From a virus, in IMG/VR virus record IMGVR_UViG_3300037520_000050, positions 1 to 46,331 of that record: a stretch of 46,331 nucleotides of DNA, one strand, 5' to 3'. The position numbers and the translations under genes are program-made. Shown here piece by piece: positions 1 to 41,306 of this stretch. A model generated the notes under the pieces. That model saw nothing but the letters and a program-made list of their open reading frames with translations. It was not told the DNA's origin and made no database searches. How positions within the stretch are numbered: the first letter of the stretch is position 1; each line of letters begins with the position of its first letter.

Positions 1-1323
1 ATCAGGATGTTCACCGAGCCGGTGCTGGTGTTGGATAAGGGTATCTTGGCTGCGCATTTGGATAACGTACAAGCCAAAAAAGAAGAGCTTATGGCTAAGC
101 TCAACTACGACAAGTCCGAGCTGATGAGTAACCCGAAGCTAGCGGAACTGTTGGAGTTTCATGGTGTGTCACCGCCCATGAAGGTGAGCGCCAAGACAGG
201 TAAGGCAGCATTCGCCTTCGCCAAGAGTGATGAACTGTTCAAGGCACTGCTGGAACACAAGAACCCGCAGGTGCAAGCCATCGTCGCTGCGCGACTGGGC
301 GTGAAGTCTACACTTGAGGAGACGCGGACCGAGCGGTTCATAGCTATTGCTGACCGGGGACTACTACCAGTTCCACTACGCTACTACGCAGCCCATACAG
401 GCAGGTGGGGTGGTGACGACAAGGTCAACCTCCAGAACCTACCGCGCAAGTCACCGCTCAAGAAGTCTATGCTGGCACCAGAGGGCTATGTGTTTATCGA
501 CTGTGACTCATCACAGATTGAAGCGCGGACCTTGGCGTGGCTAGCTGGACAGAACGACCTTGTGGAGTTCTTCGATAAGAACAACGCGGAAGTCGCAGCG
601 GGTGTAGAAAAGGCGAACATGCAGTACGACCCGTACAAAATCATGGCGTCAGAGATATACGGTGTAGCCGTAGGCGACATAGTAGACGACCAGCGGTTTG
701 TGGGTAAGACCACCATTTTGGGTGCAGGCTACGCCATGGGGCCAACTAAGTTCCAGATGCAGCTAAAGACCTTCAACGTCGATATGCCAATCGAGGAGTG
801 TAAGCACATTATTACGGTGTACCGTAACGCTTACCCCATGATACCGCTACTGTGGGAGCAAGGGGATAAGGCGCTAGAGGCGCTTATGTCCACTAGGACC
901 GCACAACTGGGTGAGCATGAAGCACTGCTAGTGGATATGTTCGGTATCAGGTTACCCAACGGTATGTACCTGCGGTACGATAACTTACGCAAGGAGCCAG
1001 ACAAGAAGTCGGGCCGGGACCAGTTCGTCTACGACGTTAAGAAGGGCCGAGCAGTTATCCCTACCCGTATATACGGCGGGAAGCTCATAGAGAATGTGTG
1101 TCAGGCAGTCGCCCGTATCATCATAGGTGAGCAGATGCTGATGGTTGCGCGTCGTTACCGCGTAGTGATGACCGTGCACGACGCCGTGGGGGTGATTGCC
1201 CCCATAGAAGAAGCTGACAAAGCCCGTGCGTTTGTTGAAGCGTGTATGCGTATACGGCCCAAGTGGGCACCAACGCTACCGTTGAACTGTGAGAGCAAGA
1301 TAGGAGCAAGTTATGGTGGATGA
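1..1323 (+). CDS. polA: Family A DNA polymerase (PolA), C-terminal part, 5' partial
   Basis: Replicative DNA polymerase of the Pol I family; only the polymerase domain is in the window, because the frame is open to base 1. The first ATG (base 7) is probably internal, and any exonuclease domain lies outside. Motif A is seen as VFIDCDSSQIEAR, with the metal-binding Asp in DSSQIE. Motif B is RFVGKTTILGAGYAMG, which keeps the Arg, the Lys at +4 and the Tyr at +12. Motif C is VMTVHDAVG. Two residues are notable: the position matching E. coli Phe762 is Leu (codon 718-720), and the usual HDE of motif C is HDA, although the catalytic Asp remains. The 3' end overlaps the next gene by 11 bases. The family call is certain; activity is inferred. 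Confidence 0.95.
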   Translation: MRMFTEPVLVLDKGILAAHLDNVQAKKEELMAKLNYDKSELMSNPKLAELLEFHGVSPPMKVSAKTGKAAFAFAKSDELFKALLEHKNPQVQAIVAARLGVKSTLEETRTERFIAIADRGLLPVPLRYYAAHTGRWGGDDKVNLQNLPRKSPLKKSMLAPEGYVFIDCDSSQIEARTLAWLAGQNDLVEFFDKNNAEVAAGVEKANMQYDPYKIMASEIYGVAVGDIVDDQRFVGKTTILGAGYAMGPTKFQMQLKTFNVDMPIEECKHIITVYRNAYPMIPLLWEQGDKALEALMSTRTAQLGEHEALLVDMFGIRLPNGMYLRYDNLRKEPDKKSGRDQFVYDVKKGRAVIPTRIYGGKLIENVCQAVARIIIGEQMLMVARRYRVVMTVHDAVGVIAPIEEADKARAFVEACMRIRPKWAPTLPLNCESKIGASYGG

Positions 1324-1825
1324 CGAAGAGGATTGCCCCCTTTGGTGGCAGACCCAAACCCCCCTTCAAGAGTTTAACGCACGTAGGAAAGCGGCTGTAG
1401 AGCGCGTCGAAGCGGAAGGCCGTGCGCGGTACGAGCATAATGCAGTTTGGCATAGGCGTAATGAAGAGTTCAAGAACAACCCAGAGCAACGGAAGTGGGC
1501 TATGTGGAGGGAGTACAAGGCAGGAGGCACGACCTTAGACAAGGTGGCTAAAAACTTTGGTGTAACCCGCGAACGGGTGCGTCAGTCGAATGCAAAGTGT
1601 GACCGCAAACTACGCACAGCCCTCAACCCCAATATGATGAATTGGTGGAAGGATGTACCAGACGAAATCCGTGACGCTACGTTGGGGGTAGAGTTCGTGT
1701 TCAAGAACGACCTTACTTTTAACGTTTGGGACGGCGACCAGACGGGATGGGCACGACTGGAACCTGATAACCACAACGCCAGCGCATACACATTCTATAA
1801 AGTAGGAGTTAGTCATGACGGATGA
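1313..1825 (+). CDS. Sigma-70 region 4-like HTH protein
   Basis: A 170-residue protein whose middle (about residues 70-105) contains TLDKVAKNFGVTRERVRQ followed by KCDRKLR. This closely follows the region 4.2 helix-turn-helix of sigma-70 factors, which contacts the -35 element. I see no region 2, so it is not a complete sigma factor. The N-terminus is acidic and Trp-containing and the C-terminus is unrecognised. It overlaps the polymerase gene by 11 bases and the next gene by 11, so it is co-transcribed and probably translationally coupled. It could redirect or inhibit host RNA polymerase, or be a DNA-binding protein that has reused the fold. The HTH call is strong; the role is inference. Confidence 0.75.
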   Translation: MVDDEEDCPLWWQTQTPLQEFNARRKAAVERVEAEGRARYEHNAVWHRRNEEFKNNPEQRKWAMWREYKAGGTTLDKVAKNFGVTRERVRQSNAKCDRKLRTALNPNMMNWWKDVPDEIRDATLGVEFVFKNDLTFNVWDGDQTGWARLEPDNHNASAYTFYKVGVSHDG

Positions 1826-2246
1826 ACCGCACGACGCAGTCAAGCTGCTACTTGCACGGATGGAGAGTCATCCAGAGGAGTTTAGGCTTAAAGACCCGTC
1901 GTACCATGACCGATGGTATAACCACATGAGCGCTATAAACTCTTACGGAAATGAGGCTGACATAGCTGCACTTAATGCAAAGGTACGTGATATTCGTATG
2001 GCTGAAATCCATGAGCAGATTATGGACGAAATGCTTAACGGTGAAGACCGTCGTCGTAAGCATGCGGAAGACACCGAGTACGAGCGGCATCTTGCAGCCG
2101 CATTGCAGCACACGCAGCAGCAAGCGATGCAGCAGAATATTCAGAACGCCATACTGCGCATCGAAAGCACCGGCAACGTCGGGATTGGTAATGTAACGCC
2201 AAGTACGCAGTTAGGTGGTGTGATAGGAATTAACAGAGGAGAGTAG
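1815..2246 (+). CDS. Unknown early protein with a tail-fibre-type GNVGIG motif at its C-terminus
   Basis: A 143-residue acidic, His/Gln-rich protein of unrecognised family. The ATG at 1815 follows a TAGGAG about 7 bases upstream and overlaps the preceding gene. The body is probably helical (a Gln/Ala-rich stretch near residues 95-115). The last 30 residues carry RIESTGNVGIG followed by NVTPSTQL, which matches the repeat (M)RIDSSGNVGIGTxxP found many times in the fibre protein at 28509-31883. The match extends to DNA: 19 identical bases at 2172-2190. This suggests copying of a fibre repeat into this gene, or two proteins sharing an oligomerisation element. No function can be assigned. Confidence 0.75.
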   Translation: MTDEPHDAVKLLLARMESHPEEFRLKDPSYHDRWYNHMSAINSYGNEADIAALNAKVRDIRMAEIHEQIMDEMLNGEDRRRKHAEDTEYERHLAAALQHTQQQAMQQNIQNAILRIESTGNVGIGNVTPSTQLGGVIGINRGE

Positions 2247-2457: not shown

Positions 2458-2994
2458 ATGAACGTTATGTCTAAAATACGTCCGAACACTCGTAAGGAAG
2501 AAGTTTTTAATACGCTGAGGCTGCACCCTAACAGCACGACTAAAGAGCTAGCTGGCCTTATGCCCCACCACAGCATAGATAATATATCGCATGCTATAAG
2601 TTCGATGGCGGCTAAGAACCTAGTATTCGTGACAGGCAAAAAGCGCGAGGAGGGTCCATCGGGTCGGATTACGACGCACAGTGCGTACTCCGTAAAGTAC
2701 AAGAAGGTCGATAAAGATGCGGCACCACAACCAATCCCACGGCCTGAATTGTTTAATTCGCTTATCGAGACGCTGGAAACAGAGATTGCCGTGCTGACGC
2801 AGTGGAAAGAAGCTGCACTACTTCGCTATCCAGACTTAGAAGTAGACCCACTGGTGTTGGAAGCACGGGCACTACTAGCTGCGGAAGCGGAAGCGCAGGG
2901 CAGCATAGTGGCCTCACAAGCTTATATTATCGGTAATAGGGACCACACTGTAGCAGTTCAGGCTTTGGTTAAGGCGTTAGGAGCTAAGAAATGA
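2458..2994 (+). CDS. Winged-helix-like DNA-binding protein (putative)
   Basis: 178 residues with a start behind AAGGAG at a spacing of 8. Residues 10-70 read like a winged helix-turn-helix: TRKEEVFNTLRLHPNSTTKE, a second helix through SIDNISHAISSMAAKNLV, then a basic wing with GKKREEGPSGR. The C-terminal half is acidic and Ala-rich and probably helical. It overlaps the following glycosyltransferase-like gene by 4 bases (ATGA). It may be a transcription regulator of the early arm; the fold call rests on the pattern alone. Confidence 0.6.
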   Translation: MNVMSKIRPNTRKEEVFNTLRLHPNSTTKELAGLMPHHSIDNISHAISSMAAKNLVFVTGKKREEGPSGRITTHSAYSVKYKKVDKDAAPQPIPRPELFNSLIETLETEIAVLTQWKEAALLRYPDLEVDPLVLEARALLAAEAEAQGSIVASQAYIIGNRDHTVAVQALVKALGAKK

Positions 2995-3749
2995 CTGAAG
3001 AGAAACGACCGAGCCTTATGATTGCCACCCCCATGTACGGGGGCATGTGCACAGGGCACTACGTGCAAGGTCTGCTTATGACCATGAACAAGATGCGCGA
3101 ACTGGGTGTCAACGTGGCATGGTGTCAGATTATGAACGAGAGCCTTATCACACGGGCACGTAATGAACTGGCACGTGTGTTTCTGGCTAGTGACCACGAT
3201 TACCTTATGTTCATCGACGCTGACATTGGCTTTGATGCAGAGGCCATCGCGCACCTCATGCTGGCCGACAAGGACATCGCATGCGGTATCTACCCGAAGA
3301 AGGAAGTGAACTGGGACAGCGTCAACCGCGCTGCCCTTGCGGGTAAGACTGACCTTGCGAACCACGCCGGAGCCTTTGTGTTTAACATGGTAGGTGGAGC
3401 CAATGTGGAGACCGACGAGACAGGCTGCATTGAAGTGCGGCATGGCGGCACAGGCTTCATGCTAATCAAGCGGGGGGTATTTGAACAGTTGGTCCCGCAC
3501 GTACCAACCTACCGCGTGTCGTCGTTCCAAAACCCAGAGACGGGTGAGTACGACAAGCCGTTGACCCATGAGTTTTTCGCTACCAGCATCGACGAGACCG
3601 GTGCACTGCTAAGCGAAGATTACCATTTTTGTGAACTGTGGCGCAACCACGGTGGCAAAATACACGCCCACCCGTTCATCAAGCTACATCATGTAGGCAC
3701 GTATGTGTTTGGTGGTGACATCTTGCAGAGCGGCGGCAATCTAAAGTGA
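2991..3749 (+). CDS. GT-A fold glycosyltransferase-like protein (early arm)
   Basis: 252 residues. It opens with a beta strand and nucleotide-sugar-type loop (LMIATPMYGG). A helix with ITRARNELARVF precedes YLMFIDADIGF, the D-x-D metal/nucleotide-sugar signature of GT-A glycosyltransferases. GTGFMLIKRGVFEQL and SEDYHFCELWRNHGG follow the acceptor/catalytic-loop pattern of the superfamily. It is related to the protein at 40569-41306, which has YLMFIDSDINF at the same place. Possible targets are phage DNA bases, host surface glycans or virion proteins; its place among replication genes slightly favours DNA or host, but this is inference. It overlaps the upstream gene by 4 bases. Confidence 0.8.
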   Translation: MTEEKRPSLMIATPMYGGMCTGHYVQGLLMTMNKMRELGVNVAWCQIMNESLITRARNELARVFLASDHDYLMFIDADIGFDAEAIAHLMLADKDIACGIYPKKEVNWDSVNRAALAGKTDLANHAGAFVFNMVGGANVETDETGCIEVRHGGTGFMLIKRGVFEQLVPHVPTYRVSSFQNPETGEYDKPLTHEFFATSIDETGALLSEDYHFCELWRNHGGKIHAHPFIKLHHVGTYVFGGDILQSGGNLK

Positions 3750-6835: not shown

Positions 6836-7237
6836 ATGGATGATTTACCCGTAGACCAGCTTGTGCGCGTCTATCGCAAGATACGTGATGTCGTGCAGGC
6901 TAAGGAAGACGCCCACAAAGCCGAGATTGCAGAGCTTAAGGGGCAGATGGACCTAGTTAGCGCCAAGCTACTTGAGGTCTGCAACACACAGAACGTGGAC
7001 AGCCTACGTACCAAAGAAGGTACGATAACTAGGCGCGCTGCTACCCGCTACTGGACGAGCGATTGGGAGTCCATGTACAAGTTTCTTAAGGAGAAGGACG
7101 TTCTGCACCTTCTCGAACAGCGCATCCACAATGGCAACATGCGTAATTACCTAGAGGAGAACCCCGATAGTCTACCTGTCGGCCTCAATGCAGATACTAA
7201 GTATGTGCTTTCGGTTCGCAAACCAACAACCAAGTGA
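6836..7237 (+). CDS. Unknown protein with N-terminal coiled coil
   Basis: 133 residues. It begins after AAGGAG and a short AT-containing leader. Residues 5-60 are predicted helical and coiled-coil-like (EDAHKAEIAELKGQMDLVSA). The rest is a compact mixed region with RRAATRYWTSDWESMYKFL and YLEENPDSLPVG. I have seen this kind of protein next to phage single-strand DNA-binding proteins, which fits its position directly before the SSB-like gene, but the function is unknown. It is the first gene after the palindrome and probably heads a transcription unit with the next two or three genes. Confidence 0.65.
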   Translation: MDDLPVDQLVRVYRKIRDVVQAKEDAHKAEIAELKGQMDLVSAKLLEVCNTQNVDSLRTKEGTITRRAATRYWTSDWESMYKFLKEKDVLHLLEQRIHNGNMRNYLEENPDSLPVGLNADTKYVLSVRKPTTK

Positions 7238-11554: not shown

Positions 11555-11589
11555 CCCCCGCTGGCGCTACTCCCCGGCGGGGGTTTTTT
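11555..11589 (+). terminator. Intrinsic terminator of the early arm
   Basis: CCCCCGCTGG and CCGGCGGGGG form a ten-pair stem with one G-U pair and a nine-base loop, followed by TTTTTT at 11584-11589. It stops rightward transcription exactly where the leftward arm begins to end: the stop codon of the giant gene is at 11588-11590. On the other strand the hairpin has no U-run, so it should work mainly in one direction. Confidence 0.88.
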
Positions 11590-14500
11590 ATGGGCGGAAC
11601 ATCTCCGCCATGCCGATGTCTTTCCCAGCAGTCTTCTTCTCAAGCCGCATACCCTGCACAGTGCGCTCCCGAACATCTGCACGACCCTTGAGTGACCGCA
11701 TAATGCTCTCTTCGGTAATAATAAAGCTAGGGTCTGGATACGTGCGGTTGAATGGAATAATCTCGTCAGTGATAAACTCTTGCAGCTGTGCCTTAGAGGT
11801 AATCTCACCCTCACGTATCTTCCTATCCAAAGTGGATAGCAGCTGGGTTTTCTCCGCCTTTATCTTCTTATCGTTCTTACCACGTGTAATGTAATAGTCC
11901 TGCCACCGAGCAAGGCGCAGTGGGCGGAAGCCGGATATCGTGCGTAACGTATCGAGTGCGGAGATGTCGTCCTTGTCGATGATAACGTCGCCCTTACGGC
12001 TAACAACGCCTTCGGCTTCACCTTGCTCTGCAGCTACCCATGACCGGATAAACGCCGGGGCTACCTTCTTTATAGCACCGTACATGTCGCCTTCAGCGAA
12101 GTTATCCTTTGCGTTGAACATCTGAATTAGCATCTGCCCACCCGCCACGTTAGCCAGCGCTGTTTTTATTAGGGTATCCCCAGTAGAGTCGCCTGTAACC
12201 GCTTCGCGGAACCACATATTCTTGAGGTCAAGTGACGTACGGCTAGACAGTTCGGTGTTCGACAAAGCGCCAAGTGGACCGTGTATAAGAATGTCGGCCA
12301 TTGACACGTTGCCAACCATTGGCTCTCCGAACTTGTCCATTATCCATGCACGGAACATAATGTCGGAGTCGTATGCCACACGTGGGTCGAGGCCCATAAG
12401 CTTGCGTACGTCCTCATCGTCTTCTTCGTCAAAGCTCTCGGACAATGCCAGCGCCATAACAGAGTATAGGGGCATGCCTAAAAGACCGCCGAATACGCCA
12501 GCCATCATCAAGACGCCGCCTAGTTCCTTCATAGCACCTGCACGTGCCGCCTTTGCTTCTGGCGAAGCTCCGGGGTACAATCCACGTCCGATATCGCGCA
12601 TCGCCCCTACTAGGAACTTGGTCTGCAGGATGGGGTGCATCTTGAAGAGGAACAGGGCACGGGTTATGTCCTTCTTCATAATGTTAGACCGCTCCCAGTT
12701 GGAGTAGTCACCTAGTGTATCCCGCACTGTGTCTAGTGCAGTTGTAACGGCCTTATCGAAGACGAGGTCTTCGGCTTCGGGGCTAGGATTTTTAGCCTTT
12801 TCCGCATCGTACGCCAGCTCAAACGCCATGAAGTAGGCCGCTTGACGCGAGATGTTTTCCAAACCTTGGAACATTACGCCCATAGCCTTACCTGTGAGTG
12901 CAGCCGTCTCCACCGCTGTGCGCGCTACACCTGTACGGTGCCTCTTGGCCGTTTCACGCTCGTTCTGGATTAGGGTATCCTGCACGGTCTCAAGCACGTT
13001 GCGCTCCATACCCGCTGCCATAGCCTTACGTAAAAGTTTACCGCGAGGTGTGTCGGAGCTAACCAGCTTTGAACTGAGCATGTTTGGCATCAACACATCA
13101 AGTTGGTCGCCCGCACCGGCTAGACCAGTACGTGTAGTCTGTACCTTAGCTTTACCCAATGTGTCCCATATCCGCATGTACTTAAACCAAATCGCCGTAC
13201 CCTTAGCGACACCGTAATCACGCCACAGGCGCGGCACCACACGTATAGGTATCGAGGTAAGCTGCAGCATAGCTGTCGCTGGCGCTGTCAGGTAGTAGAA
13301 GTATGACGCACGGTTAAGGACGTTTATGAACGAACTCTGCGGGCTTGGGTTTATCTCGTCCTCTGCACGCGACTCAAGCTCGTCTATAACCGAGTTGTAT
13401 TTAGCCCGTAGGGTTGCATCGCGGTCAGATACGTTATCCCGTGCCTCCTCTATCTTTAGGCGAATGTCCCCGGCATAGGCCAACTTGCTTAGCTGGTTAG
13501 CATAGTTACTAGCTTGCGACGCAAACTGCTGCAGCAGGTCCTGCTGGAAGCCTACTACTTCTTGGGCGTGCATGAACCGGCGGCGCACCGACCGTTCCGG
13601 CGTAGATAGCAACCACGTCTGGTAGATGCTGTCCGTAAGGTCTTTGAAGCTCTCAGCGTTGATACCCTTGGTGCCCGCAAACTCCTCCTTTGCTGTTTTC
13701 ACTAGGTCGAATATCTTCTGCATCATCTGGTCGTCAGACTTTATATTCTCCCGCAGTTGAGAGATATCATTGCCTATGGTTATAACGCTGCTGTCCTCGG
13801 GGTTCACACCTAAGCGCTTAGCTATAGCTTTCTGTGCAGCTTGCATGTCCTTAGCGGAGTAGAACTGGTAGAACTCCCGCTCCCGTGTACCGTCTTTGGC
13901 CGCTGCTACACGCACATAATATTGACCTTCACGCATGAACGGGAAGTAGTCTTTAGTGAACAGGTCGGAGTTGAGGTCGTAGAATATATCCCCGCTCTTC
14001 TTAGCCTCGTCTGGGTTCATCACCTCGCGCATCATATCCGCACGTAGGTCGCGCAGGCGCTTAGCTTCTGCCTCACCGGCAATAGTAGAAATGCGACCGT
14101 CTAGTAGCGCCAGCTCTGCTTCGAACATGTCTTTGTAGTAGGCGCGTATCTCTTTATACAGCTTGTGGCCGTTCTTAATCTCGGCCAGCTCGTCCCACAG
14201 CTTATGCACGTCACGGATACGACGGGTAAGTTCTGCAATCTGGTCTGTCTGGGCACTCGTCTTCTGGCGGTCGATAGCAGTTTTAGATAGGTCCGCTAGC
14301 AGCTTGCGCATGTCGTCAGACCTTTTTACCTTGTCGCCCTTTACCCCCACTACTTCCTTACCCTGCATAGTCAGAGCCTTCATCTCGGCTATTATGCGGG
14401 CGGCTAGCGCCTTGTCGTTTGAGTTCTTCAATATGCGGGCTTCGATTTCCTTCATCGCAGGGTGGTTAGCCAGCGCTTCACCAGCAGACTTAAACTCGTC

Positions 14501-17500
14501 TGGAGAATATTCGTTTATACGGGCAGTGCTCATGGTCGTAGCCAGCACTTTGTCTTCGTCGGCCAGAAGAAACTCGTCCAGCTCGCGGCCTATATCCTCA
14601 GAGGCTTTGATAATGTTAGCCTTCATGGCAGTCATTTTCTGCACCAGCGTGTCAATCTCACGTATGGTAGGCAGGTCTGGACCAAACCAGTTTAAGATGC
14701 CGGACGTTGGTATAGTCTTTAGTATAGCCTTTAGCGTAGGTGGCCCCATGCCATCGGAGTTATCCTTGAACGCATTAAGGAAGGCGCTGAACGAACGTCC
14801 CTTCACAGCTTTCCCTACACCGTCAGCTATGCCGTTAGTGGACGTAGACTTTTTGGCACGCCGCAGACCATCGCTCATGGAGGCCGAGGTTTCTTCCAGC
14901 GCTTCCTTGTCTTTCTTGGTGGTCTTAGGCCGGGAGTATTTTGTAGCGCGTGGTGTGGTGGTATCCCACCCACTGATATACCGCATGCCCTTAACCAGCG
15001 TGCTTTCCTGTGGGCCGTTTACGACACGCTCGTGGCCTGCGGCCAGTATAGCTTCTACATCCGCATCGCTGATTGCTAGGTTGATACCCAGCTTACGTGC
15101 AAAGTTACGGATAATAGCCGCAATACGGCTAAGCATATTTGTCCGGATTTGTCCGGTCTCGGACATTTCAGCTAGGACTTCTTCTACTGCACGGGCGACC
15201 CGGTCAGTGTCTTTTGCATACGCCTCTGGGTTAGCAGCTAGCCACGCATCGGTTTGCGTCCGTATGTTACCGTTGCTTTTGTATAGCGCGGTCAAAGCGC
15301 CGTCTAGCTCGCCACGGAACAGCTTCTCAAGGCCAACGTGACCAAGGGCTTCATGGAACAGCACCGCCTTAGCACGCTCTACGGACTCAAGGTTGTCGGC
15401 AATCAGATACACTGTGCCATCAGGAGCCACGAAGCCTTCTGCATTAGTGGCGTTGTCCTGCATCACAGCCCGGCGTATCTTAGCGTCAGCTATGTCGTTA
15501 ACTGACTGTACCACTTCAACTACGGGTGGACCTTTCCACACCGACACGATAGCATCTACTGCTGCACGGACTTTGGATACGTCGGTCTTGGCTTGGCCCG
15601 GCTGCGTTTCACCCCTACGGTACTTCGACACACGGCTTTCAGCTAGGTCGATTTTGGCGTCGCGTAGCTCCTTTTGGTCACCTTCCAGCAACGCATCTTT
15701 AATACGTATCTTGGCACCAAGCTGCTCGTCCTTGCGCATCTCTGACATGGAACGTAGCCGCGACCGTATCGGGTTCAGCATGCGATTGTTTACGAGCTTA
15801 GCCAGCTTCTCGTTGGCGACCACCAACTCGGCTTCCGCTGCCTTGGCTTCAACGCCTGTGGTGTTGCGGAACTTGGACATTGCTGCCCGTGCTTCTTCTT
15901 CAGCCTTGGCGATGTTGTCCTGTGGGCGACCGAACTTGTCGTACGCAGCGGGACGCTCCAGCTGGCGGATAAGCTCTGTACGCTGGTTGTTGTCTATCTC
16001 GCCACGCTCACGCGCAGCATCAATCTCTGCAGTAAGCTCTTGCACCATCGACGTAGCCACAGTGGGCTTTGCGGAGTCCGTATCTGGTATAGCCGCAGCG
16101 GGAGCAACGTATGGCATGAGGTCCATAGCCTGCTCTTCGAAGTCCTTCAGGGTATCTGCGGCTGCAAACACCTCGCCGTCTGGACCGACAACCCTATATG
16201 GCTTCGGGCTAGTCTCATCAACCTGCACACTATACGCTTCGTTAGCAGGGTTAGCACGACGTATGGCGTCCTCAATGTTCTTTACGAACTGGGCCTTGTA
16301 CTGCTCGTCCTTGGCTGCACGCTCTTGCTGCAACCTATCAAACTCGTCGGCCTGTGCCTGACGCTCGGCTTCACGCTGCTCCGGTGCGAGCGCACCCTGC
16401 TCCAACTTGCGCTGCTGGATTTCCTCGAACTTGTCGAGGCGGTTTTCTTCCTGTGTAGGCAGTGCACCAAACAGACCTTCTTGACCTGCAGCTTCCACAG
16501 TGCTGGCACTGGGTGGGCGTCCCCTACGCGAGTATTTGATACCCGTGGGGGAAGCTGCTGCTGCGTTTAGGCGGTCAACGGCTTCCGCTTCGTCAATTCC
16601 GTATTTGTCAGCAAATGCACGGACGCCATCGTCGTTTTGCAGGGTAGCCTCAGCAAATGCTGGCGTAATAGTGGGCGCAGCGGAACGCGCAGGTGCAGCT
16701 TCTGCTTTTGGTGGGGGAGTATAGTCAAACCGACTAACGGCATTACGTATGCGGTCGATGGTATATTCAGGTTTATCCTTCTTACTGATGTCTAACCCTA
16801 GACCACGTGCAATCGCGTTTATCCTAGGCGTATTAAAAGGTACACCACCAGCATCAACTGCAGAGACAAGGTCAATAGCAGACTGCTCTATAGGAGATAG
16901 CTTACGGCGCTGTGGCGCAGCTTCTGCTTTTGGTGCAGCCTGCTCAGCAAACAACGGCTCAATAGTAGAAACTTCGTTACCAACAAACTGCGAGAACGCA
17001 GCCATGCGCTCGGGTGCAACAACCTTGTCGATGCCGGTGGTCTTCATGGCGTCAACGTATTGACGCGCTATGCTCTCTACGAGTGGTGCCGGTGCTACCT
17101 GCCCCTTATCAACAAACGCAGTGTACTCATCTATCTGAGTATTTATGTCTGGTATGGTGCTAGCAGGCTCGACTCCAGCAGCTTCAGCCTCGCGCATGCG
17201 CTGCACGACGGCTTCTTCTTCGATGTCCATCGGGGGCAATGTGGAAATGTCAGGGCCTTCGCCGACATCAATATCTTCTTGCGCTAGCCGTTCGGTACGT
17301 GCTTTTTCAAGTTCTGCAGCTTGCTTATCAATAGCGGCCTTCTGCGCCACCATGGTGTCTACGACCTGCTTGGCTTTCTCCAGCGGAAATCCACGCTTGA
17401 CGAACCTAGCTTCTGCCTCAGATATAGCTTTATCGTCTGCGTCTACTGGCAGGGCGTCAAGCTCTTGTGCAATCTCTTTCGTAAGTGCTTCGCGGTTTTC

Positions 17501-18529
17501 CTGCCGCGTTTCACGCGCACCACCATAGCCACCTAGGAATAGGGACGCGATGCCTTCGGACGCAGCCTGACCAGCTACGCCCTTCCACGTATCTACATCG
17601 AAGCCTTCACGCTGCAGCGCTAGGTTCTCGGCCAACTGCTCTTGCCCACCTTGTACAGCTTCCGGTACAGCTTCCACTGCCGCGCCCCTAGCGGTTCCAC
17701 CTAGTACACTGCGCCTTGCGCCGACTTCTACGGCTTCACGCGCTGCCACCTTAGCGGCAACATTCTTAGCTGCGTTTGCACCTATGGTACGGGCAATCTG
17801 TGGAGCAAAACCAGTAGCCGAAGCGAGCGCGCCAAATGCACCACCAAGCGCAATCTGGTCCATATTCTTGCCGCCATACTCCTGCGCCCGCTCAGCTGCG
17901 GCTTCGGCGTCTTTCTCAGACGCGCCGCTCTTTACGAACTCTTCGTAGACGGCGTCGTATACTGCACCTTTTATGGTACCTACGCCTGACGCCGTACCAA
18001 GTCCGGCCAGAGTAGCTGCAGGTATAACTCCGGTACCGCCAGTAGCAACAGCTGCCCCGACAAAAGGTATTGCTGAACCTGCTACACTAGCAACGTTCTC
18101 CAACGGCGCATAAGTGAACGCACGAGCAGCAGCCTTTACCTCTTCCCACACGCCTTTGCCTTCGGCGTCCTTCTGGATTTTGCGGGCAATTTCTAAATCT
18201 TCACGAGACCCAGCAGATTTCAAGGCGGCGGCGGCTTTAGACACGTAATCAGCTGCATCGGACACAGCATTATCAGCACCGAAGACATCTGAGATAGACT
18301 TAACTGTACCGCTTAAACCTTCGGCTACACTCAAAGGTATGTCTGCAACAGGCGCAATCAACCCGCCGACTAGCGGAATTTTCTCGATAGAGCTAGCACC
18401 CTGCTTGGACTTACCACCTTGGTAATACTCTCTGGCAATATACGCTTTAGCATCGCGGTCTGTAGCATTCTTAGGTGCGTTAACAGTGTATTCCCTGCCG
18501 TCTGGGCCTTTAATTACATATGTGGGCAC
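11588..18529 (-). CDS. Giant polyvalent / internal virion-type protein with zincin-like motif
   Basis: 2313 residues, GTG start with AGGAG eight bases upstream. The N-terminus (TYVIKGPDGREYTVNAPKNA) is a short motif I associate with podovirus internal and ejected proteins. It is followed by Gly/Ala-rich, partly hydrophobic segments (about residues 45-230), long disordered and coiled-coil stretches, and a zincin-like HEALGHVG at residues 1059-1066 within an SVERAKAVLFHEALGH context, as in polyvalent-protein metallopeptidases. The second half is mostly helical, with a hydrophobic stretch LMMAGVFGGLLGMPLYSVM near the C-terminal end. Such giant proteins are usually carried in the capsid and injected with DNA. 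The late-arm position beside a lytic transglycosylase supports this. Peptidase activity is unproven, because the spacing is HExxGH rather than HExxH. Confidence 0.75.
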   Translation of the reverse strand: MPTYVIKGPDGREYTVNAPKNATDRDAKAYIAREYYQGGKSKQGASSIEKIPLVGGLIAPVADIPLSVAEGLSGTVKSISDVFGADNAVSDAADYVSKAAAALKSAGSREDLEIARKIQKDAEGKGVWEEVKAAARAFTYAPLENVASVAGSAIPFVGAAVATGGTGVIPAATLAGLGTASGVGTIKGAVYDAVYEEFVKSGASEKDAEAAAERAQEYGGKNMDQIALGGAFGALASATGFAPQIARTIGANAAKNVAAKVAAREAVEVGARRSVLGGTARGAAVEAVPEAVQGGQEQLAENLALQREGFDVDTWKGVAGQAASEGIASLFLGGYGGARETRQENREALTKEIAQELDALPVDADDKAISEAEARFVKRGFPLEKAKQVVDTMVAQKAAIDKQAAELEKARTERLAQEDIDVGEGPDISTLPPMDIEEEAVVQRMREAEAAGVEPASTIPDINTQIDEYTAFVDKGQVAPAPLVESIARQYVDAMKTTGIDKVVAPERMAAFSQFVGNEVSTIEPLFAEQAAPKAEAAPQRRKLSPIEQSAIDLVSAVDAGGVPFNTPRINAIARGLGLDISKKDKPEYTIDRIRNAVSRFDYTPPPKAEAAPARSAAPTITPAFAEATLQNDDGVRAFADKYGIDEAEAVDRLNAAAASPTGIKYSRRGRPPSASTVEAAGQEGLFGALPTQEENRLDKFEEIQQRKLEQGALAPEQREAERQAQADEFDRLQQERAAKDEQYKAQFVKNIEDAIRRANPANEAYSVQVDETSPKPYRVVGPDGEVFAAADTLKDFEEQAMDLMPYVAPAAAIPDTDSAKPTVATSMVQELTAEIDAARERGEIDNNQRTELIRQLERPAAYDKFGRPQDNIAKAEEEARAAMSKFRNTTGVEAKAAEAELVVANEKLAKLVNNRMLNPIRSRLRSMSEMRKDEQLGAKIRIKDALLEGDQKELRDAKIDLAESRVSKYRRGETQPGQAKTDVSKVRAAVDAIVSVWKGPPVVEVVQSVNDIADAKIRRAVMQDNATNAEGFVAPDGTVYLIADNLESVERAKAVLFHEALGHVGLEKLFRGELDGALTALYKSNGNIRTQTDAWLAANPEAYAKDTDRVARAVEEVLAEMSETGQIRTNMLSRIAAIIRNFARKLGINLAISDADVEAILAAGHERVVNGPQESTLVKGMRYISGWDTTTPRATKYSRPKTTKKDKEALEETSASMSDGLRRAKKSTSTNGIADGVGKAVKGRSFSAFLNAFKDNSDGMGPPTLKAILKTIPTSGILNWFGPDLPTIREIDTLVQKMTAMKANIIKASEDIGRELDEFLLADEDKVLATTMSTARINEYSPDEFKSAGEALANHPAMKEIEARILKNSNDKALAARIIAEMKALTMQGKEVVGVKGDKVKRSDDMRKLLADLSKTAIDRQKTSAQTDQIAELTRRIRDVHKLWDELAEIKNGHKLYKEIRAYYKDMFEAELALLDGRISTIAGEAEAKRLRDLRADMMREVMNPDEAKKSGDIFYDLNSDLFTKDYFPFMREGQYYVRVAAAKDGTREREFYQFYSAKDMQAAQKAIAKRLGVNPEDSSVITIGNDISQLRENIKSDDQMMQKIFDLVKTAKEEFAGTKGINAESFKDLTDSIYQTWLLSTPERSVRRRFMHAQEVVGFQQDLLQQFASQASNYANQLSKLAYAGDIRLKIEEARDNVSDRDATLRAKYNSVIDELESRAEDEINPSPQSSFINVLNRASYFYYLTAPATAMLQLTSIPIRVVPRLWRDYGVAKGTAIWFKYMRIWDTLGKAKVQTTRTGLAGAGDQLDVLMPNMLSSKLVSSDTPRGKLLRKAMAAGMERNVLETVQDTLIQNERETAKRHRTGVARTAVETAALTGKAMGVMFQGLENISRQAAYFMAFELAYDAEKAKNPSPEAEDLVFDKAVTTALDTVRDTLGDYSNWERSNIMKKDITRALFLFKMHPILQTKFLVGAMRDIGRGLYPGASPEAKAARAGAMKELGGVLMMAGVFGGLLGMPLYSVMALALSESFDEEDDEDVRKLMGLDPRVAYDSDIMFRAWIMDKFGEPMVGNVSMADILIHGPLGALSNTELSSRTSLDLKNMWFREAVTGDSTGDTLIKTALANVAGGQMLIQMFNAKDNFAEGDMYGAIKKVAPAFIRSWVAAEQGEAEGVVSRKGDVIIDKDDISALDTLRTISGFRPLRLARWQDYYITRGKNDKKIKAEKTQLLSTLDRKIREGEITSKAQLQEFITDEIIPFNRTYPDPSFIITEESIMRSLKGRADVRERTVQGMRLEKKTAGKDIGMAEMFRP

Positions 18530-28508: not shown

Positions 28509-31500
28509 TTAGTTTCCTTCTAGTTGTGCCACGCGGGCGCGGAGCGATTGAATTTCCTTGACCAGCATCGGAACCAGTTTTGAGTAGTCCACACCCATCA
28601 TATCGTCTGGGTCTTCCGGCTGGCTTACTGCCTCTGGTGCAACGGTGACAAGTTCTTGGGCCACGAAGCCGTAGCGTTGTTCGCTGTTATCGGCATTCCA
28701 CTTGAAGCTGCGGACTTGAAGTGCGTCGATAAGGCTCGCCGCGTCTGGGGCGTCGATGATGTCGTGCTTTAGACGAACGTCGGATGATGTGACGTATGCT
28801 GTGGCGGTTGTAGTGGTAGTAATAGAGCCGACATTAACCGAGTTTACTTCAAAATATTCAGCCGTTCCGCCACTGCTTGCCCAACGCTGAACAATCCCAG
28901 TTCCTGTTGGCGCTACCTGTAGGCATAATTTGCCACCAGCAGTCGTCGTCCCCACCAGCAAGTTGCCGTTGTTGTCGATGCGCATACTCTCAGACGAGCC
29001 ACCGCCAGAGTAGAACGCCATGCCGTAACCGCCGCCAGTATTATTTTTAAACTGGGTTAGGGAGTTGGTTGTATCAACACCGAGAAGGATGCCCTGTCCA
29101 CCGCCAGCAGTTGTGCGGAAAGAAGCAAGATTACCCGAAACCGACGTAACCACATCGATACGCTGTGTCGGCGAACTCGTACCAATTCCGACGTTGCCGC
29201 TGCCGTCAATGCGCATACGTTCTGTATTGTTGGTGGAAAACAGCAACGGATTATTAGAGGTTACATTAACCAAGCCCCAACCTGCGGAAGTAGAACCGAA
29301 CTGAGTGGTTACGCTCCCACCATTGGCTTGAAACGCGGCACTGCTGCTTCCTGACGCGGTGACCAACCGGTCATTAACGCCGCCTCCCGGCGACGCCGTG
29401 CCAATCCCGACGTTGCCGCTGCTATCGATGCGCATACGTTCTGTTGCGGAAGTGCTGCCCTGAGTGGTCCCAAAGGCTAGGCTGTAAACATCGACGCCAG
29501 CGCCCTGAATGGCTTGCATATACGCACCAGCGCCAGTGTATGACGCGTTGGATGTGCTGGCCATGCGCAGCGTGACTGTCCGTCCCGGAGTATTATCTGC
29601 GTAGTTGAACCGAACTTCTGTGTTCGCGTTTCCGCCATTAACATCCAGCTTCGCACCCGGCGAACTCGTACCAATCCCGACGTTGCCGCTGCTGTCGATA
29701 CGCATGCGTTCAGTGTTGGTGTTCCAGTCGCCGAACCTGATGTTCCCTGCATTGGTAGCAAGAATAAGGTCGCTACCGCCAGCACCAAAGTTCATCTGCC
29801 CAGCGGCACCAAGCTTTACCGCGTTCCCACCATTCGTTGAAGAGTAAGCGCCCGCCGTGGTCGTGATGAAGCCGTTAACAGTCAGCTTATCCGCTGGCGA
29901 ACTCGTACCAATCCCGACGTTGCCGCTGGTGTCAATCCGCATGCGTTCTAAGCCGTTTGTGCCCAGAGACATGGCCGCAGCAGTGACTGTCTGGATAAAG
30001 AGGCCACCCGTTTCTGCAAGCATAGTTGCCGTGCGAGTGCCGTTAAAGCCTAAATCAATACCACCATAGGTCGTGCCGTTGATTTGCAGCATCGACGTGC
30101 CGGAAGAATTGATGCCCACCGAACGAGTGTAAAAACGACCAAATACATCAGGTGTAGCCGTACCAATCCCGACGTTACCGCTGCTGTCGATGCGCATGCT
30201 GAGGGCGCTACTTGAATTATAGAAGCTGGACTCGCCGTTATCCGCAACAATAAAACGGGTGGCCCCACCAGAAGTAGCCGCCTCAAACGAATAAGTTGAC
30301 CCTGTAGTTCCAGCACCACGAGCAGTAATGCGACCGTTGCCGGTCGTCCCCCCAACAAACAAGTTGCCACTCGCATCAAGCGTCATCGCCTGTGTGAAGG
30401 AGATAGCGTTTCCTGCTGTGCCGGATGGTGCGTTGAAGAAGCGATGTTCAGAGCTAGTCTGTTGGTAATACGTAGCCCCAGCGCCAGTTGCCGCATACTT
30501 GAAGCCAGAGTTGTAATAGGCGTTTGAGCTAAGGAAGGTGTTGTTTACTGTGCCCGCTAATGCCGCGCCGCCAAGAGCGCCAACTTGAAGCGCAGTGTAG
30601 TCAGTCCAAGTGCTAGGCGTTACACCAATCCCGACGTTGCCGCTGGAGTTGATACGCATACGTTCTGAACCAGCAGTTTCAAAAGCCATATTGCTGCTGG
30701 TATCAACAGACAACTTACCTTTTTCTGCGCCACCTACACCGAAGCGCATCTGAGCAGGCGAACTTGCTGGATAGATACGAACTTCGCCGTTTACATCTAG
30801 CTTCGCACCCGGCGAACTCGTGCCAATCCCGACGTTGCCGCCAGAGGCTTGCAAAGAAATATCCGCAGCACCGACACCAGCATTAATGCCTTGGATATTG
30901 ACAATATCCGTTACCGCAGATGCGCGTCCAAACTGAATAATGCGGGTGTTAGTTGTGCCGCTATCGCCAATCGTTGCGATGGTTGTAGTAGCACTCATAC
31001 CGAGAGTGGCTATGCCTGTAGTGCGAAAATCCCCAACAACATCCAGCCTAGCTCCCGGTGTAGCCGTACCAATCCCCAACCGGTTGTTGGTGTCGTCCCA
31101 GAAGAAGTTAGCATTGTCCTGCGAGTACACGCCAGACGCACCTGCAAAGACAACCGAGCCAGCGGTGAATGCAGTGGCCGTTCCTGTGCCGCCATTAGCT
31201 ACGCCAAGCGTGCCAGCAAGAGTTATTGCGCCAGTCGTGGCTGTGTTAGGTGTAAGGCCAGTGGTGCCTGCGCTGAACGACGTGACGCCAATGCCAGTGA
31301 GGGTGGCCCACGATGGAGCGCCGCCGGTATTACCGACGAGAACTTGGCCTGTGGTGCCCGCAGCAGTTGCAAGAAGGGCGGATGTGGTGTTGCCGTAAAT
31401 GACGCCGTTGGCAGTGAATGTCGAGGCACCTGTGCCGCCATCGGAGACCGCAAGGTCTGTGCCAAGCGTCAGCGAGGAGAGGTGAGTGGTGGCGTCTACG

Positions 31501-31883
31501 ACGTTAGTGGCATCGGTATACACCCACATGGTTTTGCCTGCGGGCACGGTAATACCGGTACCTGCTGCGGTCTTGACGACGACGCTATCTGCGCAGTCGT
31601 TCTTCACGATATAGGGTTTTTCAATCGAAGGGACGATAAGGTTACGAGTAGAGCCACCGGTCGTGCCGGTGCAGCGCAAGCGCATATTACGCGCTGTCTG
31701 CGAAGCGTTCGTATCTGTAAGAGTAAGGGTAACATCTGCGCTAGCAAACGTCACATCTGCCGAGCCTACAATGGCTTCCTCTAAGGCGGTCCCAAGGTTT
31801 AAGTTAGTGACGTCACCCCACGTGGTGTTATTCTCACCAGTGGCCATAAGTTGGATTTTGAGGGGGCTAAAAGTACTAGGCAT
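28509..31883 (-). CDS. Tail fibre with GNVGIG repeats and S74 auto-chaperone domain
   Basis: 1124 residues. The N-terminus (TWGDVTNLNLGTALEEAIVG) looks like a virion attachment segment. The shaft is a long beta-rich region with at least seven copies of RMRIDSSGNVGIGTSSPGAK or close variants, separated by beta strands. The C-terminus is an intramolecular chaperone of peptidase family S74: SSDVRLKHDI has the Ser and, five residues on, the Lys of the self-cleaving dyad; GFVAQELVTVAPEAV and a final coiled coil (VPMLVKEIQSLRARVAQLEG) follow. The domain trimerises the fibre and then cuts itself off. The fibre would recognise the host surface. Confidence 0.93.
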   Translation of the reverse strand: MPSTFSPLKIQLMATGENNTTWGDVTNLNLGTALEEAIVGSADVTFASADVTLTLTDTNASQTARNMRLRCTGTTGGSTRNLIVPSIEKPYIVKNDCADSVVVKTAAGTGITVPAGKTMWVYTDATNVVDATTHLSSLTLGTDLAVSDGGTGASTFTANGVIYGNTTSALLATAAGTTGQVLVGNTGGAPSWATLTGIGVTSFSAGTTGLTPNTATTGAITLAGTLGVANGGTGTATAFTAGSVVFAGASGVYSQDNANFFWDDTNNRLGIGTATPGARLDVVGDFRTTGIATLGMSATTTIATIGDSGTTNTRIIQFGRASAVTDIVNIQGINAGVGAADISLQASGGNVGIGTSSPGAKLDVNGEVRIYPASSPAQMRFGVGGAEKGKLSVDTSSNMAFETAGSERMRINSSGNVGIGVTPSTWTDYTALQVGALGGAALAGTVNNTFLSSNAYYNSGFKYAATGAGATYYQQTSSEHRFFNAPSGTAGNAISFTQAMTLDASGNLFVGGTTGNGRITARGAGTTGSTYSFEAATSGGATRFIVADNGESSFYNSSSALSMRIDSSGNVGIGTATPDVFGRFYTRSVGINSSGTSMLQINGTTYGGIDLGFNGTRTATMLAETGGLFIQTVTAAAMSLGTNGLERMRIDTSGNVGIGTSSPADKLTVNGFITTTAGAYSSTNGGNAVKLGAAGQMNFGAGGSDLILATNAGNIRFGDWNTNTERMRIDSSGNVGIGTSSPGAKLDVNGGNANTEVRFNYADNTPGRTVTLRMASTSNASYTGAGAYMQAIQGAGVDVYSLAFGTTQGSTSATERMRIDSSGNVGIGTASPGGGVNDRLVTASGSSSAAFQANGGSVTTQFGSTSAGWGLVNVTSNNPLLFSTNNTERMRIDGSGNVGIGTSSPTQRIDVVTSVSGNLASFRTTAGGGQGILLGVDTTNSLTQFKNNTGGGYGMAFYSGGGSSESMRIDNNGNLLVGTTTAGGKLCLQVAPTGTGIVQRWASSGGTAEYFEVNSVNVGSITTTTTATAYVTSSDVRLKHDIIDAPDAASLIDALQVRSFKWNADNSEQRYGFVAQELVTVAPEAVSQPEDPDDMMGVDYSKLVPMLVKEIQSLRARVAQLEGN
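29165..30840 (-). repeat. Dispersed GNVGIG repeats in the tail fibre gene
   Basis: Copies occur near 29180, 29400, 29670, 29910, 30165, 30625 and 30820. Several share the 19-base core GGCAACGTCGGGATTGGTA on the coding strand, preceded by codons for RIDSS. Spacing is irregular (about 200-460 bases), so this is not a tandem array. The same core is present in the early gene at 2172-2190. Confidence 0.8.
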
Positions 31884-40255: not shown

Positions 40256-40569
40256 TACACGAACTTCCCGCGTGTTTTGCCTTGAGTAGCGCAGCCATCG
40301 CCGCGACGAGAGGCGGAGCCGCCCTTGGCCATCTTCTTGACCTTGCCGCCGCGCTTCATACCTTCACCGGCTTCCATGGCTACTACTTCTTCAGCGCCAC
40401 CGGGTTTACCCGCTGCACCTTTTTTCTTCTTCTTAGCTAACGCCATACCTGCTACACCTAGACCACCCATACGAGCGATGTCACCGATACCTACTTTGCC
40501 AGCCTTCATGGCCGCGCCCGCAAGTCCGCCCATAGCGCCCGCTTTTAGAATATCTCCGAATTTACTCAT
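40255..40569 (-). CDS. Small Gly/Lys-rich protein with DGCATQGKT end
   Basis: 104 residues. The N-terminal part is Gly/Ala-rich and mildly hydrophobic (GAMGGLAGAAMKAGKVGIGD). The C-terminus is basic: KMAKGGSASRRGDGCATQGK followed by TRGKFV. The end closely resembles the SIDGCAVKGKTK segment of the 345-residue protein. TAATG couples it to its neighbours. Probably a virion component; unknown function. Confidence 0.65.
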   Translation of the reverse strand: MSKFGDILKAGAMGGLAGAAMKAGKVGIGDIARMGGLGVAGMALAKKKKKGAAGKPGGAEEVVAMEAGEGMKRGGKVKKMAKGGSASRRGDGCATQGKTRGKFV

Positions 40570-41306
40570 TACGCTGCATCCTTCTGTGCGGGGACAACCA
40601 TTGGGTAAAGAATATCATCGCCGTAATTGCCGATATATTCCTGTACGCCCATGTGGCCCAGTGTGATTGTGGGGTCTACCCACACTTCAAAACCAAGTTC
40701 CCGTGCACGGTCGCAGAAGAGGAAATCTTCTCCGATGTAACCTTCGTCGGTGACGAGGAAGTCGAACATGGCGTTTAGCATGCGGTCGGACCGCGTGTCG
40801 TAGTAGCTCCACTCTGGGTGAGCTTCTGACATCTGCTCAAACACTTCACGACGCACGAGCATAAAGGCTGTCGCTACGCGCTTTGCGCGGACTAGACCCA
40901 TCTGGTTCATGGTGAGCTGGTTGTTCTCGTCGTGGTCGAGAGTAGCAATATAGTTTTTGGTTTCGCTGCGCGTACGGGGCACCGCAGCTACAATACCCTT
41001 CTTAGGGTCTGTACCCCACGCCATGAGGCGGAATACATCTTCTGGCTCGAAGTTAATGTCCGAGTCGATAAACATAAGGTAGTCGCACTTAGACTCAAGC
41101 AGGTCTTGCGCCAGCAGGTTGCGCGCACGAGAAACAACCGAACACCCGCATATGCTGCCGATGTGAAGTTCAATTCCGTGTGCCGCAGCCTGCTGAGCAA
41201 AACGTGCAAGAGAAACAGCTAGCTTCAAGGAGACCTTGAAGTCGTACGCTGGAAGAGCGATGAAGACGCTCTTACCAGCTAAGTCGTAGCTTTGTTCCTG
41301 CTGCAT
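40569..41306 (-). CDS. GT-A fold glycosyltransferase-like protein (late arm)
   Basis: 245 residues. The domain order matches the early paralogue: SVFIALPAYDF near the start, SRARNLLAQDLLESKCDYLM with the D-x-D signature FIDSDINF, AVPRTRSETKNY, KRVATAFMLVRREVFEQM and a final GEDFLFCDRARELGF. Expressed late, beside head genes, so it may glycosylate virion proteins. Only the fold and the metal site are supported. Confidence 0.8.
   Translation of the reverse strand: MQQEQSYDLAGKSVFIALPAYDFKVSLKLAVSLARFAQQAAAHGIELHIGSICGCSVVSRARNLLAQDLLESKCDYLMFIDSDINFEPEDVFRLMAWGTDPKKGIVAAVPRTRSETKNYIATLDHDENNQLTMNQMGLVRAKRVATAFMLVRREVFEQMSEAHPEWSYYDTRSDRMLNAMFDFLVTDEGYIGEDFLFCDRARELGFEVWVDPTITLGHMGVQEYIGNYGDDILYPMVVPAQKDAA

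Follow-up and report, generated by a model that had tools for sequence, protein, structure and literature searches.

Organization of the early gene and its surroundings

The window (the whole stretch of viral DNA that was analyzed, 46,331 nucleotides) carries at 1815-2246 (plus strand) an ORF of 143 amino acids, which homologue comparison placed in an uncharacterized phage family, designated RMESHPEEF, and which bears a fibre-like unit. It lies downstream of the C-terminal part of a DNA polymerase A gene (7-1323, plus strand), the upstream neighbor kept in most family loci, and of a gene for a protein with a weak match to sigma-70 region 4. Glycosyltransferase-like, exonuclease, helicase, and primase/helicase genes follow on its 3' side. 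The ORF is situated in the replication arm, and the virion genes occupy the minus-strand arm.

The ORF contains the sequence AILRIESTGNVGIGNVTPSTQLGGVIGINRGE, followed by the stop codon. On the basis of the family alignment and a structural model, its product begins with a conserved helical N-terminal domain (residues 1-78; 1815-2048), which overlaps a long predicted helix, first E/R-rich and then Q-rich (residues 47-119; 1953-2171). The fibre-like unit LRIESTGNVGIGNVTPSTQL (residues 114-133; 2154-2213), delimited by flank match, profile, and codon test, includes a 19-mer at 2172-2190 and is followed by the tail end of the protein (2214-2246); 14 residues remain past the proline of the motif. 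The AlphaFold model (mean pLDDT 86) was helical to residue 119, with residues 47-119 as one helix, and the fibre unit was modeled in the monomer at low confidence (pLDDT about 50-57). AGAGGAG (2235-2241), within the last codons of the ORF, is likely the ribosome-binding site of the next gene, which starts at 2249.

The tail fibre and its repeat

The ORF at 28509-31883 (minus strand) encodes a tail fibre of 1124 amino acids. It has both repeated shaft units (about ten copies) and a Peptidase_S74 intramolecular chaperone domain (28629-28787, minus strand; PF13884, 6.6e-11), which are the features of S74 tail fibres, and it was matched by PHROG tail-fibre profiles down to 2.8e-51. Its nearest solved relatives are the MAT fibres of Bdellovibrio (8OND, Bd2133, 1.3e-9; 8OML; 8OJN; 8ON4), and by its sequence and its S74 domain the window fibre belongs to these MAT/S74 fibres. 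No reverse transcriptase, as would mark a diversity-generating retroelement, turned up when 26 ORFs of the window were compared with PHROGs. In phage G013 (locus L253), a second fibre-like ORF (minus strand, 771 amino acids) with fewer repeats was observed beside an S74-type fibre ORF of 1402 amino acids.

An earlier note on this DNA had claimed that the fibre repeat is embedded in the 143-residue protein, and this proved to be real. The 19-mer GGCAACGTCGGGATTGGTA at 2172-2190 (plus strand) recurred at 29180, 29399, 29669, 29906, 30161, 30623, and 30821, always on the minus strand and with 0 or 1 mismatch, and all seven of these copies fall inside the fibre ORF. Identity over the 19-mer, which it had reported for 29669-29687 (minus strand), was confirmed and extends to 29906-29924 (minus strand). 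Its statement that the flanks match with few changes also holds: the upstream flank agrees as TGCGCATCGA.AGCA.CGGCAACGTCGGGATTGGTA, and the fibre copy closest to it in this respect is 30161-30179 (minus strand; RIDSSGNVGIG). In dinucleotide shuffles the mean number of 19-mer matches was 0.01, and none of 100 shuffles reached 8; recurrence by chance is excluded.

The two genes lie on opposite strands some 27 kb apart, as had been described, so that the early-gene and fibre copies are inverted repeats. These could in principle recombine, and the DNA is more alike than similarity of the proteins would require, both of which would suit a nucleic-acid element, that is, a recombination site or a site of mRNA-mRNA pairing that does not act via the protein. 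However, the motif reads in the same direction in both mRNAs, and pairing between them is therefore excluded. In addition, no fusion ORF of early and fibre genes was seen in the loci scanned, and the stretch is in frame in every family member having it. Such an element is accordingly a very improbable explanation of the shared DNA.

In the MAT fibres, trimeric beta-helices intertwine and the repeat makes up a capping loop on them; its consensus opens with V-G and has P and L at fixed spacing (PMC10769870). When the pattern V-G-phi-G/N-polar-x-x-P-x-x-x-L was positioned via alignment to 8OND, V122-L133 of the early protein (V-G-I-G-N-V-T-P-S-T-Q-L; 2178-2213) fitted it. By sequence, then, the fibre-type unit corresponds to the capping loop of trimeric beta-helix shafts. 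The repeat unit and capping loop are common to the early protein and the Bdellovibrio fibres Bd2133 and Bd3182 (8OND, 8OML; PMC10769870). Unlike those fibres, the early protein has a single isolated unit and is otherwise helical, lacking the several beta-helix repeats, and no Pfam match to an S74 chaperone was found in it above the cut-off.

The RMESHPEEF family

Searches of IMG/VR yielded 92 distinct family sequences, from loci confirmed by tblastn and from an HMM of the N-domain. Because recruitment leaned largely on the MESHPEEF string, distant members are under-sampled in this set. The layout is a conserved helical RMESHPEEF domain followed by a hypervariable C-terminal tail. In the N-domain, R15 and P20 are invariant, and L12, M16, S18, E21, E22, F23, and W34 are nearly so. 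In most loci the DNA polymerase gene, the family gene, and a common set of neighbors appear in conserved order, from which a constant role of the N-domain in the replication arm may be deduced. Two or three tandem paralogues, mostly near the DNA polymerase gene, were found in L066, L069, L071, L073, L078-L080, and L177 (the L numbers denote loci).

With four members as queries, no homologue in cultured phages was found, and no member was confirmed in contigs of prokaryote genomes. Neither Pfam nor solved structures gave a match to the family, and no fold match in the PDB was significant; BFVD returned only two fold matches, both uncharacterized proteins of uncultured phages. A model of the L035 protein, which has a longer fibre-like tail, showed two short strands and a C-terminal helix (pLDDT 54-82). 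The family is apparently new to the libraries searched.

A methyltransferase-like gene (start TEYQFTKDWF) is often located just 3' of the family gene (L023, L035, L042, L047, L104, and others), where it takes the place of the window's 61-amino-acid gene. Tail type and downstream gene tend to move jointly.

Fibre-type units among the family tails

A fibre-type string was present in 10 of the 92 family tails, and an eleventh (L382) was found later. An HMM built solely from 35 fibre repeats of four phages was run on 14,157 stop-to-stop ORFs. Outside the fibres, the best matches were family tails without exception, ahead of all other ORFs: L042 (7.4e-6), the window (6.8e-5), L002 (1.3e-4), L047 (4.2e-3), L005 (4.3e-3), and L038 (0.02); one other multi-repeat ORF was detected, the second fibre-like ORF of 771 amino acids mentioned above. 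PHROG tail-fibre profiles also matched family members. Searches of IMG/VR with the tail only (two queries) returned family members and one fibre each (L379, MRIESTGNVGIGTVSPSQKLDVNG; L384, NLGIATQSPSQPLTVAGG), with no other class outside the family. No paper was found for the literal peptide NVGIGT.

The DNA signature, defined as the 19-mer with A or G at one position, was placed in its context at 80 loci read from at least 119 IMG/VR stretches. Fibre-like ORFs held 98 of the 102 instances; the early-gene lineage held 3, and a partial ORF of 352 amino acids at a contig end held 1. The proposal in the earlier note of a moving cassette is not borne out by this distribution.

The endings of the tails differ by lineage: some have an IK..LG helix and others a fibre-type unit, and L014, L008, L026, and L018 end differently again, with an ..ID[T].. 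string in the corresponding position. Within the family, VGIGTQSPSQ, VGLSGQSPSS, TGLVGQSPTR, and QGLVGKSYTH form a graded series. The key capping-loop positions (V-G-phi-G...P...L) are retained in seven diverged family tails, which hints at more constraint than would be expected of passive filler.

Codon-level kinship to fibre genes and age of the tail

Codon identity was evaluated over the 33-base unit by 1000 synonymous randomizations, in which the protein was fixed and codons were drawn from the phage's usage. The window unit was identical to its own fibre at 30 of 33 positions (24.4 expected, P 0.002) and to the fibre of phage G002 at 31 of 33 (P 0.001); against the fibres of the window phage, G002, G013, and G019, P ranged from 0.001 to 0.007. 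The L002 unit gave P values of 0.001-0.003. Weaker signals, uncorrected, were obtained for L042 (P 0.007 at best), L047 (0.004), and L104 (0.002), and no codon-level kinship that stands was detected for L005, L035, L023, and L038. In this test the window tail was not specially close to its own fibre as compared with those of other phages.

These results bear on the possibility that a flexible Gly/Asn/Val-rich tail grew fibre-like at the protein level, with no shared DNA. The graded series inside the family and the several pattern-bearing tails with no codon-level kinship to fibres are in keeping with such convergence. For the window and L002, however, codon identity exceeded that in nearly all of the randomizations (P about 0.001-0.002), and the run GGC AAC GTC GGG ATT GGT had a P of about 9e-4 from codon usage. 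Convergence is thus disfavored for the window tail and, as an overall explanation, unlikely. Since their codon identity goes beyond synonymous expectation, the stretch in the window and L002 likely descends from fibre DNA. In view of the missing codon kinship in L005, L035, L023, and L038, several of the other fibre-like tails may be older, convergent, or of other origin.

The L002-L004 proteins, 87% identical to that of the window, carry RIDSIGNVGVGNVTPSTQLGGVISINRGE, and L005, with an N-domain 62-64% identical, carries RIDSNNLVGVGTIAPSTQLGGVISINRGE, a diverged form of the tail. Both L002 and L005 have CTGCGCATCGAC and GTCGGGGTTGGTA flanking a stretch that differs between them (AGCATCGGCAAC vs TCTAATAATTTA). 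This pattern fits, but does not prove, the copying of a patch into an older fibre-like tail. We infer, short of proof, that the transfer ran from the fibre to the early gene; no donor copy could be dated. A copied stretch reaching into GNVGIGVTPST of the copy at 30623-30641 was also considered and looked promising once a 3-base gap was allowed, but it was rejected because L005 accounts for that part by point changes.

The earlier note had held that a repeat was copied. The codon identity in the window and L002 and the tail-only searches do support a copying event from fibre DNA in the past, but a recent date is not supported, because the same tail occurs in relatives at 87% identity and, more diverged, at 62%. 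It had also named the same motif with different codons in homologues, or its presence in all homologues with no datable recent copying, as observations against its proposal; the outcome was mixed, in that most homologues lack the motif and several of those having it use different codons. The 19 bp shared with two resident fibre copies might suggest that a mobile repeat cassette jumped recently out of the fibre gene in this phage only. The occurrence of the tail in L002-L004 and, in diverged form, in L005 argues against this, as does the finding that none of the 102 placements of the signature fell in another non-fibre gene family, and we regard such a jump as extremely unlikely.

Exchange of tails and constraint on them

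Identities in the N-domain and the tail were only loosely coupled among pairs of 61 members (r 0.45). Between L002 and L006, identity is mostly 83-95% in the N-domain and upstream of it, compared with 25-61% in the tail. L015 and L048 show the reverse, with 58-80% in the N-domain and 88-98% in the later tail and beyond. At the DNA level, the tails of the pairs L015/L048 and L057/L040 are 75-100% alike and their N-domains 53-85% alike, and dS for L057/L040 was 1.43 in the N-domain and 0.155 in the tail. Comparison of these sequences thus shows that tails have been exchanged between N-domains and between phages. When placed on the N-domain tree, the fibre label required 9 changes, against 9.6 for random labels; the number of fibre-tail origins is not fixed by this figure, since many forks of the tree are unresolved.

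Because tail ends are traded among relatives, the early gene is an unusual case of ordinary protein mosaicism and neither a recent one-off jump nor a demonstrated mimic of the fibre. In phages, domain mosaicism is described as fragments common to otherwise unrelated proteins, together with recent within-gene recombination, with receptor-binding and replication proteins as hotspots (Smug et al. 2023, PMC10684548). The early protein and the fibre likewise have a homologous fragment in otherwise unrelated proteins. The present case differs from that survey in that the fragment falls short of a whole domain, being one unit of the fibre shaft about 20 residues long, and in that the recipient is an uncharacterized replication-arm protein, a gene class other than those usually reported.

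The dN/dS ratio of the tail ranged from 0.12 to 0.9 and exceeded that of the N-domain in most pairs, although the counts are small. It was 0.72 in the tail and 0.19 in the N-domain for the window and L002, the tail figure resting on 7 changes, and 0.77 and 0.18, again from small counts, for L002 and L005. To judge from these few changes, the window-type tail appears to be weakly constrained.

Possible role of the tail

The earlier note had raised the possibility that the unit serves as a fibre-compatible oligomerization element. The protein would then form trimers through it, or bind nascent fibre chains, for example as a decoy or in superinfection control. The unit is indeed known from solved trimeric beta-helix shafts, and the full capping-loop pattern is retained in several diverged tails. 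Moreover, exchangeable C-terminal tips are known from other small phage proteins, the P22-like tail needle and T4-like fibritin (PMC3741392, PMC3797505), which also resemble the family in having a conserved N-terminal part and a long helix. In contrast to them, the early protein has no heptad pattern and is not encoded among virion genes, and no relation to them in sequence was found.

A crude test for 3.5-residue hydropathy periodicity in the helix preceding the tail was negative in all 15 members examined, and a coiled-coil stalk was rejected on this ground. The lack of heptad periodicity makes a coiled-coil mini-fibre less likely and favors a flexible tail. The low confidence of the unit in the monomer model, the weak purifying selection on the window-type tail, the location of the gene in the replication arm, and the fact that its own fibre is matched no better than those of other phages also speak against a docking element, and a lone capping loop with no flanking beta-helix would be unlikely to fold alone. 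Given the weak constraint, the missing periodicity, and the lack of a special match to its own fibre, a fibre-binding or superinfection role is unsupported, and a working oligomerization or docking element seems quite improbable.

The account that we consider probable is that of a family with domain mosaicism, in which fibre-shaft units are among the exchangeable tails and the window's stretch came from fibre DNA. The family comprises small replication-arm proteins of uncultured tailed phages with a conserved helical N-domain, in most members a long charged or Q-rich helix, and a hypervariable C-terminal tail, and recombination inside the gene swaps tails between phages, often along with the downstream gene. 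Some tail alleles contain one unit of the fibre-shaft repeat. An older tail would already have contained a fibre-like RIDS..VGVGT..PSTQL unit, as L005 does today. The ancestor that the window and L002 share may then have acquired, within this tail, a short patch copied from fibre DNA, with short repeats as the sites of ectopic recombination or gene conversion, and the tail with the patch would then have spread and diverged along with the family. The N-domain would perform a constant job, with the tail as an appendage that is flexible, evolves fast, and may be a variable hook for binding partners, and the fibre unit as a tolerated or weakly used segment of it.

On this account, an apparently undescribed family beside the DNA polymerase gene exchanges its C-terminal tails as freely as receptor-binding tips are exchanged, and proteins other than fibres can take up short fibre-shaft units, which is mosaicism on a smaller scale than domain-based surveys count. 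A stronger version, to which we give little credence, is that the capping units are functional, selectable tail alleles, acting as exchangeable hooks for oligomerization or for docking on nascent fibres or a host partner; that partner would then be one recognized by the fibre-like sequence. If the tails are functional, the family would lend itself well to the study of hooks that are hypervariable and recombine, placed in the replication arm and not in the virion.

Other genes in the two arms of the window

Some further genes of the window were recorded. In the replication arm, 6836-7237 (plus strand) has a PHROG match named minor head protein (9.8e-20). The ORFs at 2991-3749 (plus strand) and 40569-41306 (minus strand), one in each arm, were placed by BLAST in a single cluster that includes a glycosyltransferase-like protein. 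Finally, the ORF at 11588-18529 (minus strand) encodes 2313 amino acids and resembles DarB-like antirestriction proteins (phrog_10089, 4.6e-39).
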